DNA from: Nitratireductor basaltis | GTDB lineage: Bacteria > Pseudomonadota > Alphaproteobacteria > Rhizobiales > Rhizobiaceae | Reading direction: 5' to 3' | Assembly (NCBI RefSeq): GCF_000733725.1 | Contig: NZ_JMQM01000002.1 | Span: 1-64,000 of the forward strand | DNA length: 64,000 nucleotides | Part shown: positions 55,776 to 63,385 of the stretch, one piece after another | Layout of the letters: each line of letters starts with the position of its first letter | How positions within the stretch are numbered: position 1 is the stretch's first letter | Made by a program: the position numbers and the translations under genes | The notes under the pieces: model-generated | What the model was told of the DNA's origin: nothing | Databases searched by the model: none | What the model saw: only the letters and a program-made list of their open reading frames with translations

Positions 55776-56984
55776 TCAGGTCAGTTCGGCCACGGCTTCT
55801 GCAATCTTGGCGCAGGCCGCTTCGATTATGTCCATCGATGTGGCAGTGGAGATCCGGAAATACGGCTCAAGCCCGTATGCCCCGCCATGCACCGAAGCAA
55901 CGCCAGCCTGCTCCAGAAGATACAGCACGAAGTCGAGATCGTTTTCGATCCGTTTCCCCTGCGGCGTGGTCTTGCCGATAACGCCCGCACAGCTGGGATA
56001 GAGGTAGAACGCGCCATCCGGCAGGGTGCAGCTGAGGCCCGGAATGTCATTGATCAGAGCATGGGCGCGGTCGCGGCGCTCTTTGTAGACCTTGACAGTC
56101 TTGTCCACGGCACCCTGCGGTCCCGTGAGCGCGGCAGCGGCGGCGGCCTGACTGACCGACGACGGGCATGATGACATCTGAGATTGCAGCTTGTTTATCG
56201 CGTCGATCAGAAACTTCGGCCCGACCGCATAACCGATCCGCCAACCGGTCATCGCGTAGGATTTCGACACACCGTTGACGACCAGCGCTTGCTCGGCCAG
56301 TTCGGGAGCCACACCAAGGATACTTTCTGCCTTAAAATCCGCAAACCATATGCGGTCATAGATTTCGTCACACATCACCAGCACATGTGGGTGACGTTTC
56401 ACAACCGCAGCCAGCGCACGCAGTTCTTCGCCGCTATAGGCCGCGCCTGTGGGGTTGGATGGAGAATTCAGAATCACCCAGCGCGTCTTGGGCGTGATCG
56501 CTGCCTCAAGCGCCTCCGGCGTCAATTTGAATCCGACGTCTTCGCCGCATTCCACGATGACGGGCGTGCCGCCATTTGCGACAACCATATCGGGATAGGA
56601 TACCCAGTAGGGTGCCGGCACGATGACTTCGGTGCCCTCTTCCACCGTCGCCATCATAGAAACGAAGAGGATCTGCTTGGCACCGCCACCAACGCAGATC
56701 TGGTCCAGTTCGCACTTGATCCCAAGACGCGTTGCGAAGTCATGCTGGATACCTTCGCGCAGGGCTTCAGTCCCGTTGACGGCAGTGTATTTTGTATCTC
56801 CGCCCTCGATGGCCTGAATGCCTGCCCGTTTGATGTCTTCGGGGGTATCGAAATCCGGTTCTCCCACGGTCAGGTTCAGGATCTCGCGGCCCTGGGCCTT
56901 AAGGTCGCGTACCTTCTGGGCGGCGGCCACGCTGGGCGAAACGCGGATCGACGTTACGCGATTGGCTAATTTCTGACTTGTCAC
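55776..56984 (-). CDS. Class I pyridoxal-phosphate aminotransferase (aspartate-type)
   Basis: 402-residue PLP enzyme of the AspC/PatA subgroup (type I beta). Recognised by NLTVGEPDFDTPEDIK, the NSPSNPTGAAYS loop, DEIYDRIWF and the PLP lysine Lys241 in NGVSKSYAMTGWRIGY, plus the carboxylate arginine in EPYFRIS. The GTG start has AGGAGA seven bases upstream. It closes the operon that includes PxpA-C, so it could transaminate the glutamate derivative released from a 5-oxoproline-like lactam (inference); ordinary aspartate or aromatic specificity is the alternative. Confidence 0.9.
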   Translation of the reverse strand: MTSQKLANRVTSIRVSPSVAAAQKVRDLKAQGREILNLTVGEPDFDTPEDIKRAGIQAIEGGDTKYTAVNGTEALREGIQHDFATRLGIKCELDQICVGGGAKQILFVSMMATVEEGTEVIVPAPYWVSYPDMVVANGGTPVIVECGEDVGFKLTPEALEAAITPKTRWVILNSPSNPTGAAYSGEELRALAAVVKRHPHVLVMCDEIYDRIWFADFKAESILGVAPELAEQALVVNGVSKSYAMTGWRIGYAVGPKFLIDAINKLQSQMSSCPSSVSQAAAAAALTGPQGAVDKTVKVYKERRDRAHALINDIPGLSCTLPDGAFYLYPSCAGVIGKTTPQGKRIENDLDFVLYLLEQAGVASVHGGAYGLEPYFRISTATSMDIIEAACAKIAEAVAELT

Positions 56985-57062
56985 GGTCTTGTCTCCTGAG
57001 ACGTCGCTATTCTATCGCGGCCCTGCCGGCGGAGCAGTCAGGGCCGAAAGGCAGGACAGGGC

Positions 57063-57839
57063 CTATTTGTTTCCGGTCAGAATCACTTCGTCCCCGACAC
57101 GCTTTCCCGTGCGCAGACCACCGGGAACCTGAAGGATCGGAAGCAGCTCGATCATGCCGATGTTCACGTATTTCGGCGTACCGATGGCATATTCGACGGC
57201 ATCGGCAATGTCGGACACCTGCGGCATCTCAAAGCCTTCAAAGTACTTCGCCTTGGCCTCTTCGGGGCTGATCTTTTCGACATGGGCGAAGATGTCGGTT
57301 TCGACCCGTCCGGGGCTGATTTCAGTCACACGCACGCGACGGCCGAAGGCATCGACCCGCAGCTGGCGGGATACGGTGTGCATTGCAGCCTTGGTGGCGT
57401 GGTAGGCAATATGCCCCCCGAACTCGTAATGCGCGGCCATTGATGTGATGTTCAGAATATGTCCGTTGTCCCGCTCCATCATGCCGGGCAGCAACAGCCG
57501 CGCCAGATGCAGACAGGCCCGTAGATTAACGTCTATCTGTTCGTCGATGTCGAAAGCCTCGGACTGCAGCAAGCTGCCGGGGCGCGACACACCGGCACAG
57601 TTGACCAGAACGTCTATCTCGAGCGGCGCAAGTGCGGCCGTGACCGCATCAAGATCGGTCACATCGATCGCATGCGGGACTATGTTATCGTGTTCGGCGG
57701 CCAGAGCTTCCAGCTTTTCCGCACTGCGCGCGAAGGCATGGACAGTCAGTCCCTTTTGGGCAAGGCGTTGGGCGATACCCCGCCCCATACCGCCAGATGC
57801 ACCAGTCACGAGTGCCGTTTTGTAGTCAGAGAAAGGCAT
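57063..57839 (-). CDS. SDR family oxidoreductase
   Basis: 258-residue classical short-chain dehydrogenase with TGASGGMGRGIA, NCAG, catalytic Ser in ITSMA and the intact YHATK (Tyr and Lys present). Closest in style to YdfG-like 3-hydroxy acid dehydrogenases that oxidise serine or related beta-hydroxy acids. Located between pxpA and the aminotransferase, 61 bases after pxpA; it may oxidise or reduce a hydroxyl of the pathway substrate. Confidence 0.9.
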   Translation of the reverse strand: MPFSDYKTALVTGASGGMGRGIAQRLAQKGLTVHAFARSAEKLEALAAEHDNIVPHAIDVTDLDAVTAALAPLEIDVLVNCAGVSRPGSLLQSEAFDIDEQIDVNLRACLHLARLLLPGMMERDNGHILNITSMAAHYEFGGHIAYHATKAAMHTVSRQLRVDAFGRRVRVTEISPGRVETDIFAHVEKISPEEAKAKYFEGFEMPQVSDIADAVEYAIGTPKYVNIGMIELLPILQVPGGLRTGKRVGDEVILTGNK

Positions 57840-57899
57840 GATTGGTTCCTGTCCTTTTGCGTGGGATCAACCCGACCGAATTGGCGGGCCTGTCGTTCT

Positions 57900-58673
57900 C
57901 TATTTCGTGTCGAGTTGCGCGGTCAGCGGTATGATTTCTCCGCCGGATTCGATGATCTCCTGGCGTAGGCGTTGTGCGAGGGCCACAGCGCCGGGCGTGT
58001 CCGAATGCACGAGAACCGATTGTACGGGCATCGCAATTTCTTCACCGGTGACGCAGGTCAGCTTCTGATCGCGCAGCACGCCCAAAACTCGCGCCACGAC
58101 TTCACCTTCGTCCTTGATCACCGCGCCGGGTTCGCCGCGCGGTGCCAGTTGGCCGTTCGGCATGTATCCGCGGTCTGCAAGGAACAGCCGCACGACCTTG
58201 CCGCCCCGCGCGATCGCCGCGACTTCCAACGCACTGCTTGGCAAAACAAGGAAGGCAATGTCGGGATCGAAACTCATGGTGGCATTCACCACGGCCTCCG
58301 CAATCGCCGGGTCGGTGCTTGCCAGATTTCCGAGCGCGCCATGCGGGTTCATATGGGTGATGCGGTGCCCCGCCCGTCTGGTAAACGCCTCAAGCGCTCC
58401 GATCTGATACAGCACGTGCGCTTCCAGCTCGACCAGAGGGATATCCATCTTGCGACGGCCAAATCCCATGCGGTCGGGGAAGCTGACATGCGCGCCTAGA
58501 TCGACACCGTGGTCGAGGGCCAGCCCAACTGTGCGGTCCATGATCACCGGGTCACCCGCGTGATAGCCGCATGCGACGTTGGCCGAGCTGATCTGCGCCA
58601 TCAGCGCCTCGTCATCAGCCAGCGTATAGGGACCGAAGCCTTCGCCCATATCGGAATTTATGTCGATCTTCAT
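57900..58673 (-). CDS. pxpA: 5-oxoprolinase subunit PxpA (LamB/YcsF family)
   Basis: 257-residue protein of the LamB/YcsF family; with PxpB and PxpC it forms the prokaryotic ATP-dependent 5-oxoprolinase. Signature KIDINSDMGEGFG at the start, SSANVACGYHAGDP, GAHVSFPDRMGFGRR and HMNPHGALGN with the conserved histidines. I start at the ATG that overlaps the preceding stop (ATGA). Slightly longer than E. coli PxpA. The related enzyme could also act on other lactams. Confidence 0.92.
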   Translation of the reverse strand: MKIDINSDMGEGFGPYTLADDEALMAQISSANVACGYHAGDPVIMDRTVGLALDHGVDLGAHVSFPDRMGFGRRKMDIPLVELEAHVLYQIGALEAFTRRAGHRITHMNPHGALGNLASTDPAIAEAVVNATMSFDPDIAFLVLPSSALEVAAIARGGKVVRLFLADRGYMPNGQLAPRGEPGAVIKDEGEVVARVLGVLRDQKLTCVTGEEIAMPVQSVLVHSDTPGAVALAQRLRQEIIESGGEIIPLTAQLDTK

Positions 58674-59065
58674 GTGTCGGGCTCCAGAAGAAACAGCGGG
58701 TCGCCGAAACCGACTACCTGGTCGTTTTGCGGACATTCACCCACCACCACGCCGCACTTCGGGGCAGAAACCTGCACCCGTGCGCCATCCAGCCCCACAT
58801 AGCCCAGCACCTGCCCGGCAATGACCCGGTCCCCTGGAGACACCACCGTCAGCCCATCATCGCCGCCGCAGGCGACAAAACGGCCCAATGCGGGGCTGTT
58901 GACGATCGCAGGCGGAGCGGTTTCGACAGGTGCGGTAGCCTCAGGGTGCGCGGACAACGCCAGACCAAGTGTCAGGACATCCGCGCCACATTCGATTTCA
59001 AGGCGCGTCGTTCCGGTTCGGCGCATCGCTTGGATCAGGCGCGATTTCTCTGGGTCGCTGAACAT
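58670..59065 (-). CDS. Biotin-carboxyl-carrier-like protein lacking the biotinyl lysine
   Basis: 131 residues with the same plan as the operon's true carrier: a short N-terminal helical part, a Pro/Ala-rich linker (residues 40-58) and a C-terminal lipoyl/biotinyl-type barrel (VVSPGDRVIAGQVLGYVG to DPLFLLEPD). Where carriers have EAMKM the aligned sequence is GLDGARV, so the lysine is Gly94 and the protein cannot be biotinylated. It may be a structural or regulatory subunit that holds the carboxyltransferase. Start is one base after the pxpC stop; it overlaps pxpA by four bases, so it is under translation coupling and not a decayed gene. Confidence 0.8.
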   Translation of the reverse strand: MFSDPEKSRLIQAMRRTGTTRLEIECGADVLTLGLALSAHPEATAPVETAPPAIVNSPALGRFVACGGDDGLTVVSPGDRVIAGQVLGYVGLDGARVQVSAPKCGVVVGECPQNDQVVGFGDPLFLLEPDT

Positions 59066-59066
59066 G

Positions 59067-60035
59067 TCAATTCCACGTATTCTGAAGTCGGCGGACCTGG
59101 GCAATGCTTTGGCGCATGGCATCCAACATGGCGGTTTCAGCAAATTCCGCCTCCCGAGCCTGCGCCAGATCGACGGGCTGAAATCGAAGGGTGTCTCCGG
59201 GCCGCGCTTGTCCGATGCGCCACAAGTCCGGTTCAATGACGCAAGCAATCTTCGGATATCCTCCCATTGTCGCGGAATCGGCCAGCTGGATGATGGGCTG
59301 CCCCCCACCGGGCACTTGAACAATACCGGGTGCGATCCCGTGCGAGCGCAATTCACCTTTGGCGTCACGGTCAAGCTCTGGTCCCTCCAGGCGGTACCCC
59401 TGACGGTTGCTGGCCGGGGTCACCTTGTAGGGCTGGCCATAGAAGGCGGCACGCGAAGCGGGTGAAAATTCCTTAGTTTCGCTGGATGGCAAAACCCGCA
59501 GGACAATATCCGTTGCGTCACCCTCTCGGGGCGTCGGCAGGGCATAGCTGATCGGCATGACACGGGGGCAAGATGCCGTGCCCTTCAGCCGGTCGCCAGG
59601 AGCAAGAACGCGACCTTCGTGACCGCCGAATCCTTCTCGCAACTGGGTGCTGCGCGAGCCCAGAATCTCGGGCACATCGATGCCGCCGGGAAGGCCAAGA
59701 TACACCCGCGCACCGTCGCGCATTGCGCCGAGAGACAATTCTTGTCCCGTCTTGGCGGATCCGGCCCAACATCGCGGCAACGCGATACCGTCCAACGTCG
59801 CGCCGCAAGCAGCACCGACCAGAGAGAATGCTGTATCCTGCGTGAACACAAAGCGGGCGGGGCTCAGCGGGATTTCCAGCCCAGCTGCGCCTTCATCATT
59901 GCCAAGCAACAGGTTTGCCATCCGCAGTGCTAGCGGGTCCATGGCCCCAGCGCGCCCAAGCCCCTGCCGCCAGTGGCCCACGCGACCCAAATCCTGTACC
60001 GTTGCAAGCGGTGGTATCGACAATATCTCGATCAT
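59067..60035 (-). CDS. pxpC: 5-oxoprolinase subunit PxpC / biotin-dependent carboxyltransferase (KipA family)
   Basis: 322 residues. The family opening IEILSIPPLATVQDLGRVGH and GRAGAMDPLALRMANLLLGN are plain, as are GLPGGIDVP and the late PGGGQPIIQLADSATMGGYPKIA. Homologous to half of the carboxyltransferase domain of urea carboxylase. Overlaps pxpB by four bases. Confidence 0.93.
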   Translation of the reverse strand: MIEILSIPPLATVQDLGRVGHWRQGLGRAGAMDPLALRMANLLLGNDEGAAGLEIPLSPARFVFTQDTAFSLVGAACGATLDGIALPRCWAGSAKTGQELSLGAMRDGARVYLGLPGGIDVPEILGSRSTQLREGFGGHEGRVLAPGDRLKGTASCPRVMPISYALPTPREGDATDIVLRVLPSSETKEFSPASRAAFYGQPYKVTPASNRQGYRLEGPELDRDAKGELRSHGIAPGIVQVPGGGQPIIQLADSATMGGYPKIACVIEPDLWRIGQARPGDTLRFQPVDLAQAREAEFAETAMLDAMRQSIAQVRRLQNTWN

Positions 60036-60685
60036 GCGATCACCTCCGCAGGAACGAAGCGAATGGCGTCACCCGGCTGCAACAGGGCGGCCGGCTGCTT
60101 GGCTGGATCGAAAAAGCTGATCTCGGCCGATCCGATGGTGTTCCACCCACTTGGCCCGGCCGACGCCGAGACGCCCGTCTGCAAGCCTGCAAGCGAAAGC
60201 GAACCGCCCGGCAGGCTCTGCAAGGGGACCTTGCGACGCGGTGTTTCAAGCCGTGGATCAAGTCCGCCGAGGTAGCAATACCCGGCATGGCTGCCGACCG
60301 CGAATACGGTGTAATCAGGCGCCGTGTGACGGCGCACCACCTCATCCACACTCAGGCCTGTCAGCTCGCAGACCTCTTGCAGATGTGGACCTCCCGCCCC
60401 TCCGTAAACAATATCAATCTCAACGATCTTGCCGGTGAGGTCTTTCCGGCGGCCTTCGGCCCACAGGGCGTCCAATTGGCGGGCCAGATCGTCCAGATCC
60501 GTCGGGACACTATCAAACCGCAATGTCAGGTTGGTCATGCCCGGCACCGCTTCTACAACATCATCCCGTGCGCTTGCGGCGTCGGCCAAAGCCCAGAACC
60601 GCCGCTGGTGATCGAGATCGAACGGACAATCAACCTGATAAATGAAGGTGCGGCTACCGATTGGAAAGAGACCTTGTTCAGGCAT
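60032..60685 (-). CDS. pxpB: 5-oxoprolinase subunit PxpB / carboxyltransferase (KipI family)
   Basis: 217 residues, the length of E. coli PxpB. The family has SVP/LTLRFD near residue 60, then VYGGAGGPHLQEVCELTGLS, the AVGSHAGYCYLGGLDPRLETPRR signature and PSGWNTIG near the C-terminus. It overlaps the end of the biotin carboxylase gene by eight bases; a longer reading frame extends into that gene. PxpB and PxpC bind each other. Confidence 0.93.
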   Translation of the reverse strand: MPEQGLFPIGSRTFIYQVDCPFDLDHQRRFWALADAASARDDVVEAVPGMTNLTLRFDSVPTDLDDLARQLDALWAEGRRKDLTGKIVEIDIVYGGAGGPHLQEVCELTGLSVDEVVRRHTAPDYTVFAVGSHAGYCYLGGLDPRLETPRRKVPLQSLPGGSLSLAGLQTGVSASAGPSGWNTIGSAEISFFDPAKQPAALLQPGDAIRFVPAEVIA

Positions 60686-62051
60686 TTGCGGTCTCCCTGG
60701 CAGCAAGCCACTGTTCAAAATGGTGGATTGATACACCTCCGGCGACAAATCCCGGCTCGGACAGCAATTGATCATGCAGGGCGGCGTTGGATTTCACGCC
60801 TGCGATGCGCAATTCTGCCAGAGCGGTCTGCGCCCTCGACAGGGCCTCGGTCCGGGTGGCGCCAAATGCGATCACCTTGGCGATCATCGAGTCGTAGTGG
60901 GCCGGCACCTCTGCCCCTGCGACCATATGCGTATCAACCCGAATACCTGGGCCGCCTGGCAGATGCATCGACGTGATTCGTCCGGGGCTTGGCGCAAAGG
61001 TTTCCGGATCTTCGGCGTTGATCCGGCATTCGATCGCGTGACCCGTGGTGGTAATCTGGTCTTGTGTCACGGGCAATCGACCACCGCGTGCCACGTCAAT
61101 CTGCATGGCAACGATATCAAGCCCCGTCACCAGTTCGGTTACAGGATGTTCGACCTGGATACGGGTGTTCATCTCGATGAAATAGAACTGCCCGTCCTCG
61201 TAGAGAAATTCGAAGGTGCCTGCGCCCACATACCCTATCTCGCGGCACGAGGCGGCACAGCGTTCGCCGACTTCGGCGATCAACGAGCGGTCAATTTCCG
61301 GGGCGGGCGCCTCTTCGATCAGTTTCTGGTGACGCCGCTGCATCGAGCAGTCGCGGTCACCCAGCCAGATGGCGTGGCCGTGGCTGTCTGCAATGATCTG
61401 GATTTCGACATGGCGGGGCCGTTCCAGGAATTTCTCCATGTAGATGTCCGGATTGCCGAAGAAGCGCGTCGCCTCCTGTGCGGTCAACATGGCTGCCTCG
61501 GCCAAGTCGTCCGGTGTGCGCACGATCCGCATTCCGCGACCGCCACCACCGCCCGCAGCCTTCAAGATCACTGGATAGCCGATGTCATCAGCGATCGCCT
61601 TGACCGCCTCGAGGTCATCGGGAAGGGTGCTGTCAGGTCCGGGAACACAGGGGACACCGGCGGCGATCATCGCTGCCTTGGCCCGGACCTTGCCCCCCAT
61701 ACGACGCATGACATCGGCCTTCGGTCCGATCAGGACCATGCCCGCATTTGCCACCGCTTCGGCGAAGGCGGCGTTTTCAGAGAGGAATCCGTAGCCTGGA
61801 TGCACAAGGTCGGCGTTCAGTATCTGCGCGGCCTGAATGACTGCCGGGATATTAAGGTAGCTCTTGCTCGCCGCGGCGGGACCGATGCATATCGCATCAT
61901 CTGCCAGGTCCAGATAGGGCGCGCCGCGGTCGGCCTCTGAAAACCCGCATACGACACGCAGACCCAGCCTACGGCAGGCGCGAATGATCCGCAGGGCAAT
62001 TTCGCCCCGGTTGGCAACAAAAACGGTCTGGATGGACTGCTGGTCGTTCAC
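60678..62051 (-). CDS. accC: Biotin carboxylase (AccC-like)
   Basis: 457 residues. Carboxylates the biotin of a carrier protein using ATP and bicarbonate. VFVANRGEIALRIIRA opens the domain; the glycine-rich lid KAAGGGGGRGM, the EMNTRIQVEHPVTE catalytic stretch and the metal/ATP ECRINAEDP are all intact. Shorter than housekeeping AccC only in the C-terminus. The GTG start overlaps the accB stop (GTGA). Given its location with PxpB and PxpC it is probably a dedicated paralogue, not the fatty acid enzyme; symbol used in the structural sense. Confidence 0.91.
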   Translation of the reverse strand: MNDQQSIQTVFVANRGEIALRIIRACRRLGLRVVCGFSEADRGAPYLDLADDAICIGPAAASKSYLNIPAVIQAAQILNADLVHPGYGFLSENAAFAEAVANAGMVLIGPKADVMRRMGGKVRAKAAMIAAGVPCVPGPDSTLPDDLEAVKAIADDIGYPVILKAAGGGGGRGMRIVRTPDDLAEAAMLTAQEATRFFGNPDIYMEKFLERPRHVEIQIIADSHGHAIWLGDRDCSMQRRHQKLIEEAPAPEIDRSLIAEVGERCAASCREIGYVGAGTFEFLYEDGQFYFIEMNTRIQVEHPVTELVTGLDIVAMQIDVARGGRLPVTQDQITTTGHAIECRINAEDPETFAPSPGRITSMHLPGGPGIRVDTHMVAGAEVPAHYDSMIAKVIAFGATRTEALSRAQTALAELRIAGVKSNAALHDQLLSEPGFVAGGVSIHHFEQWLAARETANA

Positions 62052-62494
62052 GCGCGCACCTTCACAAGGCATTGCCCCGCCTCAACCGAGGAGCCGTCTT
62101 CGATACAGATTTCGCTCACAGTCCCCTCGGAGTCCGCGACGATGGCGGTCATGACTTTCATCGCCTCGATCACACAAAGCGTCTGGCCCCTGGTGACCGG
62201 CGTCCCGACTTCGACGAACGGCTTTGATGTGGGATCTTCTGCCAGATAGCAGAGCCCTGCGAGCGGTGCCGCAACCACGACAACACGCTCGCTGTCAGTC
62301 ACTGCCCCACCGTCTGCCGGCGTCTCGTCCATGGTTGGTCCGGCCACGCCTGCAGGCGCCGCCTGACCTCGCCCCGCCGCCACTCCACGCCGCAGCGTGA
62401 TCCGATGACCATTCTGAACACAGGCGTATTCGTCCAATGCGTTCTGAGCAGCCCATTCCATGCAGGAAATCAGGGATTCGACTGTTAACGACAT
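62048..62494 (-). CDS. accB: Biotin carboxyl carrier protein (AccB-like)
   Basis: 148 residues. An N-terminal helical part (VESLISCMEWAAQNALDEYA) and an Ala/Gly-rich linker lead to the biotinyl barrel with CVIEAMKVM; Lys113 is the biotin site. A typical 'thumb' segment is present (YLAEDPTSKPFVEVG), as in AccB-type carriers. First gene of the leftward operon; the promoter should be in the gap to the divergent RraA gene. Confidence 0.9.
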   Translation of the reverse strand: MSLTVESLISCMEWAAQNALDEYACVQNGHRITLRRGVAAGRGQAAPAGVAGPTMDETPADGGAVTDSERVVVVAAPLAGLCYLAEDPTSKPFVEVGTPVTRGQTLCVIEAMKVMTAIVADSEGTVSEICIEDGSSVEAGQCLVKVRA

Positions 62495-62692
62495 CTGCGA
62501 ACCGGGACCTCTTCGCTGGGATCGACTGTGTTTGGTCGAAGTTACCATCGGTCCGGCGCAATGATGTCAGAGCGGTTTGAAATGCCCCCCAGACATTCAT
62601 ATCAATCCGCGATCATGTCAGACCCAACGGATGTTATCCGCCGTCTAACCGCCTTGGTATCCTGCGCGTATCCGGGTTCATACCCGCCGAAG

Positions 62693-63385
62693 ATGCCGGA
62701 GGAGCACACATTGCCGCACATCATCACCAAATTCGAACGGGCCAAACCCGAAGACGTTAAGGCACTGTCCAAATTCGGTAGCGCCACCATCCATGAGGCG
62801 CAGGGCCGTCTCGGCGCGCTAAGCCCCCGCCTAAAGCCGATTGATCGCAACATGACCGTTTGCGGTCCCGCATTCACAGTTCTGGGCGCCCCGCGCGACA
62901 ACCTGATGCTGCAGCTTGCGATCGAATACGCCCAAGCAGGTGATGTCATCATTATGTCCGCGGGTGAATACGAAGACGCCGGTTGCTTCGGCGATGTGCT
63001 TGGAAATGCTTGTGTCGCCAAGGGGATCGCGGGTGTTATTGTCGATACCGGCGTGCGTGACACCCAAATGCTGATCGAACTGGGTCTGCCGGTTTTCTCA
63101 CTGAGCGTCTGCATCAAGGGTACGGTCAAGGAGACGCTGGGCCAGACCGGATGTGACATAGTGATCGGTGGGCAGTTGATCCACCCCGGCGATGTGATCT
63201 GCGGTGATGCCGACGGCTTGGTCGTTGTGCGCCGCGAAAACGCGGCAGAGGTGGCGCGCCTGTCGCAGGAGCGTGAAGATGTCGAAGCAGATCTGATCGA
63301 GAAATACAAGGCAGGCCGCACTGTAATCGACCTTTGCAAACTCGAACCGGTTCTCAAAGCCAAGGGACTGACCACCGACCTTTGA
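62693..63385 (+). CDS. RraA / 4-hydroxy-4-methyl-2-oxoglutarate aldolase family protein
   Basis: 230 residues. The family includes HMG/CHA aldolases that split 4-hydroxy-4-methyl- or 4-carboxy-4-hydroxy-2-oxo acids to pyruvate, and the RNase E regulator RraA. Marks: FGSATIHEAQGRLGALSP, AGDVIIMSAGEYEDAGCFGDVLGN and DTGVRDTQ with Arg122-Asp123, which match the catalytic pair of the Pseudomonas aldolase. The start is uncertain: an ATG at PEEHTLPHI gives the family's usual length; ATGs 26 and 55 codons upstream are in frame. Divergent from the Pxp/Acc operon, suggesting shared control, and convergent with the LacI gene. Confidence 0.85.
   Translation: MPEEHTLPHIITKFERAKPEDVKALSKFGSATIHEAQGRLGALSPRLKPIDRNMTVCGPAFTVLGAPRDNLMLQLAIEYAQAGDVIIMSAGEYEDAGCFGDVLGNACVAKGIAGVIVDTGVRDTQMLIELGLPVFSLSVCIKGTVKETLGQTGCDIVIGGQLIHPGDVICGDADGLVVVRRENAAEVARLSQEREDVEADLIEKYKAGRTVIDLCKLEPVLKAKGLTTDL

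Follow-up and report, generated by a model that had tools for sequence, protein, structure and literature searches.

A conserved lysine-less paralogue of the biotin carrier protein in proteobacterial pxp/acc clusters, a candidate assembly subunit

What can a biotin carrier protein that has lost its biotinyl lysine do in the operon of a biotin-dependent enzyme? The question is raised by a gene of Nitratireductor basaltis, here called X, at positions 58670-59065 on the minus strand of the window, that is, of the whole stretch of 64,000 nucleotides that was analysed, itself part of a 717-kb contig. X translates without stops into 131 amino acids, with an N-terminal domain (residues ~1-36), a linker and a barrel domain (residues 54-128). 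Residues 55-126 belong to the Pfam family Biotin_lipoyl (PF00364; 33 bits, cut-off 22.1). The biotin carboxyl carrier protein (BCCP) profile TIGR00531 gives X 20 bits, far under the equivalog cut-off of 115.2, which the other X proteins described below do not reach either. When 128 carrier-like proteins are aligned, Gly94 of X occupies the biotinyl-lysine column, just as the sequence-only reading had it, and no lysine of X lies within four columns of that site, which reads GLDGA in X versus EAMKV in the operon's own carrier. X therefore lacks the biotinyl lysine in (A/V)MKM by which AccB/BCCP is recognised. A structure model of X built with AlphaFold2 from two sequences had a pLDDT of 36 and was discarded.

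The operon runs on the minus strand in the order accB-accC-pxpB-pxpC-X-pxpA, followed by genes for an SDR-like oxidoreductase and an aminotransferase. The lysine-bearing accB-type carrier (62048-62548) was assigned by profile match and alignment; its longest reading frame probably begins too early, and a start at 62494 (MSLTVES) fits the Paracoccus carrier better. The biotin carboxylase gene accC (60678-62072) scores above the TIGR00514 cut-off. Profile matches identify pxpB (60032-60685) as carboxyltransferase subdomain C/D (CT_C_D), pxpC (59067-60035, 322 amino acids) as subdomain A/B (CT_A_B) and pxpA (57900-58673, 257 amino acids) as a member of the LamB/YcsF family. The frame of pxpB is open to 60775; the start at 60685 (MPEQGLF), chosen by eye, is likelier and gives an 8-base overlap with accC. 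A single base, 59066, separates the stop of pxpC from the ATG of X, and the stop of X shares an ATGA (58670-58673) with the start of pxpA; the one-base gap and the overlap, both pointed out earlier, are present in the sequence. Downstream, the genes for the SDR-like oxidoreductase (57063-57839) and the aminotransferase (55776-56984), also on the minus strand, stand in the same order in Paracoccus and, by this synteny, probably belong to the same pathway. The gene order of the cluster as a whole (55776-63385) is that of Paracoccus plasmids, with PxpC 64.5% identical, and the X of the window shares just 29% identity with the X of a congeneric genome; together, these observations suggest horizontal transfer.

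The sequence-only reading had proposed a search for the same lysine-less protein beside pxpABC/accBC, and 51 such proteins were found, each aligned with the carrier from its own locus, in pxp/acc clusters of alpha-, beta- and gammaproteobacteria. X-type genes occur among relatives in the window's family and in other families of its order, on plasmids of Paracoccus, Rhizobium, Agrobacterium, Bradyrhizobium, Paraburkholderia and Pseudomonas, and in Burkholderia, Rahnella and further members of the phylum. None of the 51 X proteins has a lysine at the biotinyl-lysine column, which is lysine in all 51 companion carriers and in 22 of 22 housekeeping AccBs. The column is filled in X by proline (15), glycine (8), glutamate (6), leucine (6), alanine (4), histidine (4), asparagine, serine and aspartate (2 each), tyrosine (1) and glutamine (1). 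Four of the 51 have a lysine within four columns, in each case at a distance of three. The motif is likewise missing from three more X proteins, those of Rahnella, B. cenocepacia and R. etli CFN 42. The R. etli cluster is locus L226 on plasmid p42c (RHE_RS23810 to RHE_RS23785). Lysine-bearing homologues at the same place in the cluster, or an alignment with a shifted, modifiable lysine, had been named beforehand as observations that would refute the loss of the site. The nearest to such an exception is the second carrier-like reading frame of locus L189, with a lysine one column on, in VLSKLM instead of (A/V)MKM; it scores higher with the carrier profile than with the X profile and was counted as equivocal. 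Because lysine-less X genes recur in dozens of related clusters, X is a conserved and widespread protein family and not a decaying copy. Weak matches of the first search for relatives (for example, L004) were unrelated proteins or housekeeping carriers and were dropped; an extra match from a class-wide search with the X of the window alone (L162) is a housekeeping AccB with EAMKT. A scan of genome contigs with three sequences returned one locus.

In the phylogenetic tree, all 51 X proteins fall on one side of a single branch (support 98/96; 96% of bootstrap trees), and the split persists when the nine motif columns are removed (SH-aLRT 83). X thus forms one group, so that nothing indicates that the lysine was lost repeatedly in recent times; the inner details of the tree are unsure because several rows have long branches. 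The sequence-only reading had taken the uninterrupted frame of X as an argument for selection and had suggested dN/dS as a check. The frame is also open upstream of the ATG, as part of a 234-amino-acid reading frame with a TTG start, so that openness alone is weak evidence; selection itself is borne out by the homologues. Among 38 X pairs that are at least 60% identical, dN/dS is 0.11-0.43, well below 1 and much like the values of the carriers, and the Paracoccus X proteins nearest to the window give 0.33 and 0.36, one further pair being too close to count. The X of the window, about 38% identical to the nearest sequence found, is too distant for a dN/dS value of its own; the evidence of purifying selection comes from its relatives and not from the window itself.

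Across the 51 X loci, a lysine-bearing carrier is nearby in all 51, accC in 39, and pxpA, pxpB and pxpC in 48 each. In a sample drawn independently of X, comprising 60 loci picked by pxpC across the phylum and five top matches already found (L183, L186, L197 and L198 were set aside as ending at a contig end or holding an unrelated carrier-like protein), X accompanies the long carrier in 6 of 6 loci (five clear, L189 equivocal), the short carrier of about 80 amino acids without an N-terminal domain in 0 of 8, and no carrier in 2 of 47. Hand-picked plasmid loci from a spread list give 6 of 6, 0 of 4 and 0 of 2, respectively. Fisher p values for X with the long carrier versus the rest are 5e-7 (genomes) and 5e-12 (all), and are only indicative because the loci are related. 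The short-carrier loci (L155, L156, L157, L158, L194, L200, L205, L206, L210, L222, L223 and L224) represent a second type of pxp+acc cluster, always without X and, where annotated, with a long 'allophanate hydrolase subunit 1'. PxpB and PxpC of the clusters studied here are homologues of the carboxyltransferase portion of urea carboxylase, and PxpA is of the LamB/YcsF family; compared to plain pxpABC 5-oxoprolinase loci, 45 of the 47 sampled having no carrier, accC or X, these clusters add a full biotin module and X.

The closest known parallel is BADC of plants, lysine-less BCCP-like proteins that help the assembly of biotin carboxylase with BCCP, although inhibition had been proposed earlier (PMC11926652). 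By its published description, BADC is BCCP-like, has no biotinylation motif, is 25-30% identical to the carrier, is encoded beside the true carrier and is non-catalytic (PMC11926652). X resembles it in that its sequence is BCCP-like and free of the biotinylation motif and that a true carrier is encoded beside it. However, BADC belongs to the plastid heteromeric acetyl-CoA carboxylase, whereas X is bacterial and lies in a pxpABC operon, and the carboxyltransferase encoded with X is of the Pxp type, not CT-alpha/beta of acetyl-CoA carboxylase. Another parallel is found in actinobacterial acyl-CoA carboxylases, whose AccE/PccE-type subunits have been compared with BADC (PMC7835884); they are small and non-catalytic, and assemble and activate a biotin-dependent carboxylase. 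Unlike X, these are not described as carrier paralogues, and they bind the carboxyltransferase subunit.

By analogy with BADC, we propose, with a probability of roughly one half, that X is a non-catalytic assembly or docking subunit of a Pxp-type biotin-dependent enzyme. In this enzyme, AccC would load CO2 onto the biotin of the long carrier AccB, and PxpB/C, a carboxyltransferase of the urea-carboxylase type, would take the CO2 over, with PxpA working alongside. X, bearing no CO2 on biotin, would hold the modules together through its carrier-like surfaces, sitting with the carrier and AccC and tying that module to PxpC; it has retained the parts by which carriers contact their partners, the N-terminal domain and the barrel fold. 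We infer that X binds PxpC as well as AccC/carrier and thereby aids assembly. Among the three functions suggested in the sequence-only reading, an active-site plug, an assembly subunit and a sensor of the true carrier, the second is the best fit, and a plug or a sensor is possible.

The first alternative makes X an inhibitor or a regulator: as a dummy, it would occupy the site of the true carrier in the complex with AccC or plug the active site of AccC or PxpB/C, and activity would fall. X is carrier-like in both domains and lacks the reactive arm, as a competitor would, and the residue where the lysine used to be varies freely; inhibition was also once proposed for BADC in vivo, but NMR and reconstitution experiments on BADC favour glue (PMC11926652). 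Translational coupling within the enzyme's own operon and the near-universal company of long carriers make a stoichiometric part likelier. We consider inhibition unlikely, although glue and inhibitor cannot be told apart by sequence alone.

Similarly improbable is a second alternative, in which X works chiefly with PxpB/PxpC, perhaps as a structural part of the carboxyltransferase, makes no contact with AccC or the carrier, and resembles carriers by ancestry only. The exceptional clusters bear directly on this alternative. Three enterobacterial loci (L165:10868-11345, L172:2144-2669 and, in Rahnella, L225:6480-6920) hold X with pxpABC and no local carrier or accC, as a PxpB/C partner would allow, and an AccB/AccC pair is encoded elsewhere in both genomes of this kind that were searched. 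Pairing of X with a carrier is thus not obligatory in gene content. The neighbours of X in these three loci are pxpABC and genes for an aminotransferase, a regulator, an SDR and ABC transporters; the X gene of Rahnella overlaps with pxpA, and its product bears the annotation of a biotin carboxyl carrier subunit. X directly follows pxpC in several loci, including the window. Against a role with PxpB/C only, X is absent from nearly all carrier-less pxp loci (45 of the 47 noted above), retains the N-terminal domain of the carrier and, in L117 and L139, accompanies accC and the carrier with no local pxpB/C.

Further exceptions concern accC. In G141 and G523, X and the carrier lack a cluster accC, and another accC, presumably the housekeeping one, lies elsewhere in the genome. 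Two Agrobacterium vitis plasmids (L055 and L152) carry the same cluster, and that of strain CG678 (L152) has kept the carrier and X and lost the accC between them. On a Bradyrhizobium plasmid (L056:4389-5378), an intact carrier and X flank a 57-amino-acid remnant of accC, and the fetched stretch holds no pxp genes. A dedicated carrier or accC beside X is therefore not required. Such clusters would be explained by an adaptor that recruits the housekeeping pair or by a role confined to PxpB/C; the retention of X where accC was lost (L152), or where only housekeeping AccB/AccC exist, is what could be expected of an adaptor. Co-divergence bears on the same choice. The distances among X proteins and among carriers correlate at 0.85, and the residual correlation of X, calculated over six genes in 35 loci, is 0.25 with the carrier, 0.25 with accC and 0.23 with pxpC, the 5-95% resampling ranges excluding zero in all three cases, with none for pxpA and pxpB. 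The value for pxpC fits a PxpB/C partner, but those for the carrier and accC are equally large, and the co-divergence in these related loci weakly suggests that X is in contact with PxpC as well as with the carboxylase side.

As a third alternative, X might carry a group other than biotin or react through another residue, given that the barrel fold of biotin/lipoyl carriers is retained. The whole carrier layout is indeed preserved, as had been proposed, including the N-terminal domain: a profile of the X family aligns end to end with E. coli BCCP (4hr7_B; E 6e-23), and an hhalign comparison of the N-terminal domain profile of X with that of the carrier gives a probability of 97.1% (E 7e-11; control 0.6%). 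X thus shares with AccB/BCCP the N-terminal domain, the Ala/Pro-rich linker and the barrel; it differs in the absent biotinyl lysine and EAMKM, the score below the TIGR00531 cut-off and the separate tree group. The marks specific to X are a glycine (80%) one column before the old lysine, a leucine two columns after it and VGYGxPLF near the C-terminal end. Most members have a His-Pro pair in a loop that we take to correspond to the thumb of AccB in the E. coli structure; the copy in the window and its Paracoccus relatives lack it. With 11 different residues at the old lysine column, no conserved nucleophile nearby, conserved X-specific positions that are mostly Gly, Pro and Leu, and no His-Pro pair in the window, a carrier of another group is very improbable. 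Finally, although the rate of evolution of X is slightly above that of the carrier (mean distance 0.71 versus 0.64), the idea of a functionless, decaying duplicate or pseudogene can practically be dismissed, given that 51 copies without the lysine are intact and form a single old group, that dN/dS is low and that the place in the cluster is conserved.

The names given to X homologues are hypothetical protein, biotin/lipoyl-containing protein, acetyl-CoA carboxylase, and acetyl-CoA carboxylase biotin carboxyl carrier protein subunit; the Pfam and NCBIfam profile searches showed no family specific to X. Proteins without a biotinylation site are thus systematically misannotated as biotin carboxyl carrier subunits. 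Our literature search, which covered few subscription journals and so does not prove priority, found no bacterial counterpart of BADC and nothing on the function of pxp+accBC clusters. In L152, L153, L154, L160, L225 and L226, a gene annotated as nac (nitrogen assimilation regulator), an SDR oxidoreductase gene and amino-acid ABC transporter genes recur alongside, which hints at a nitrogen-containing substrate.

Returning to the assembly subunit, we tentatively suggest that a BADC-like bacterial adaptor joins a biotin carboxylase/carrier module, either dedicated or taken from fatty-acid synthesis, to a Pxp-type carboxyltransferase, which may constitute a new class of biotin-dependent enzymes acting on lactams or related amides. 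The pxpABC-accBC-X clusters represent a distinct, uncharacterised enzyme type. BADC was called unique to plants as recently as 2025 (PMC11926652); if our proposal is true, lysine-less carrier subunits would no longer be so, and the many bacterial examples, including that on plasmid p42c of the well-known laboratory strain Rhizobium etli CFN 42, would open the dispute between glue and inhibitor to simple genetics.
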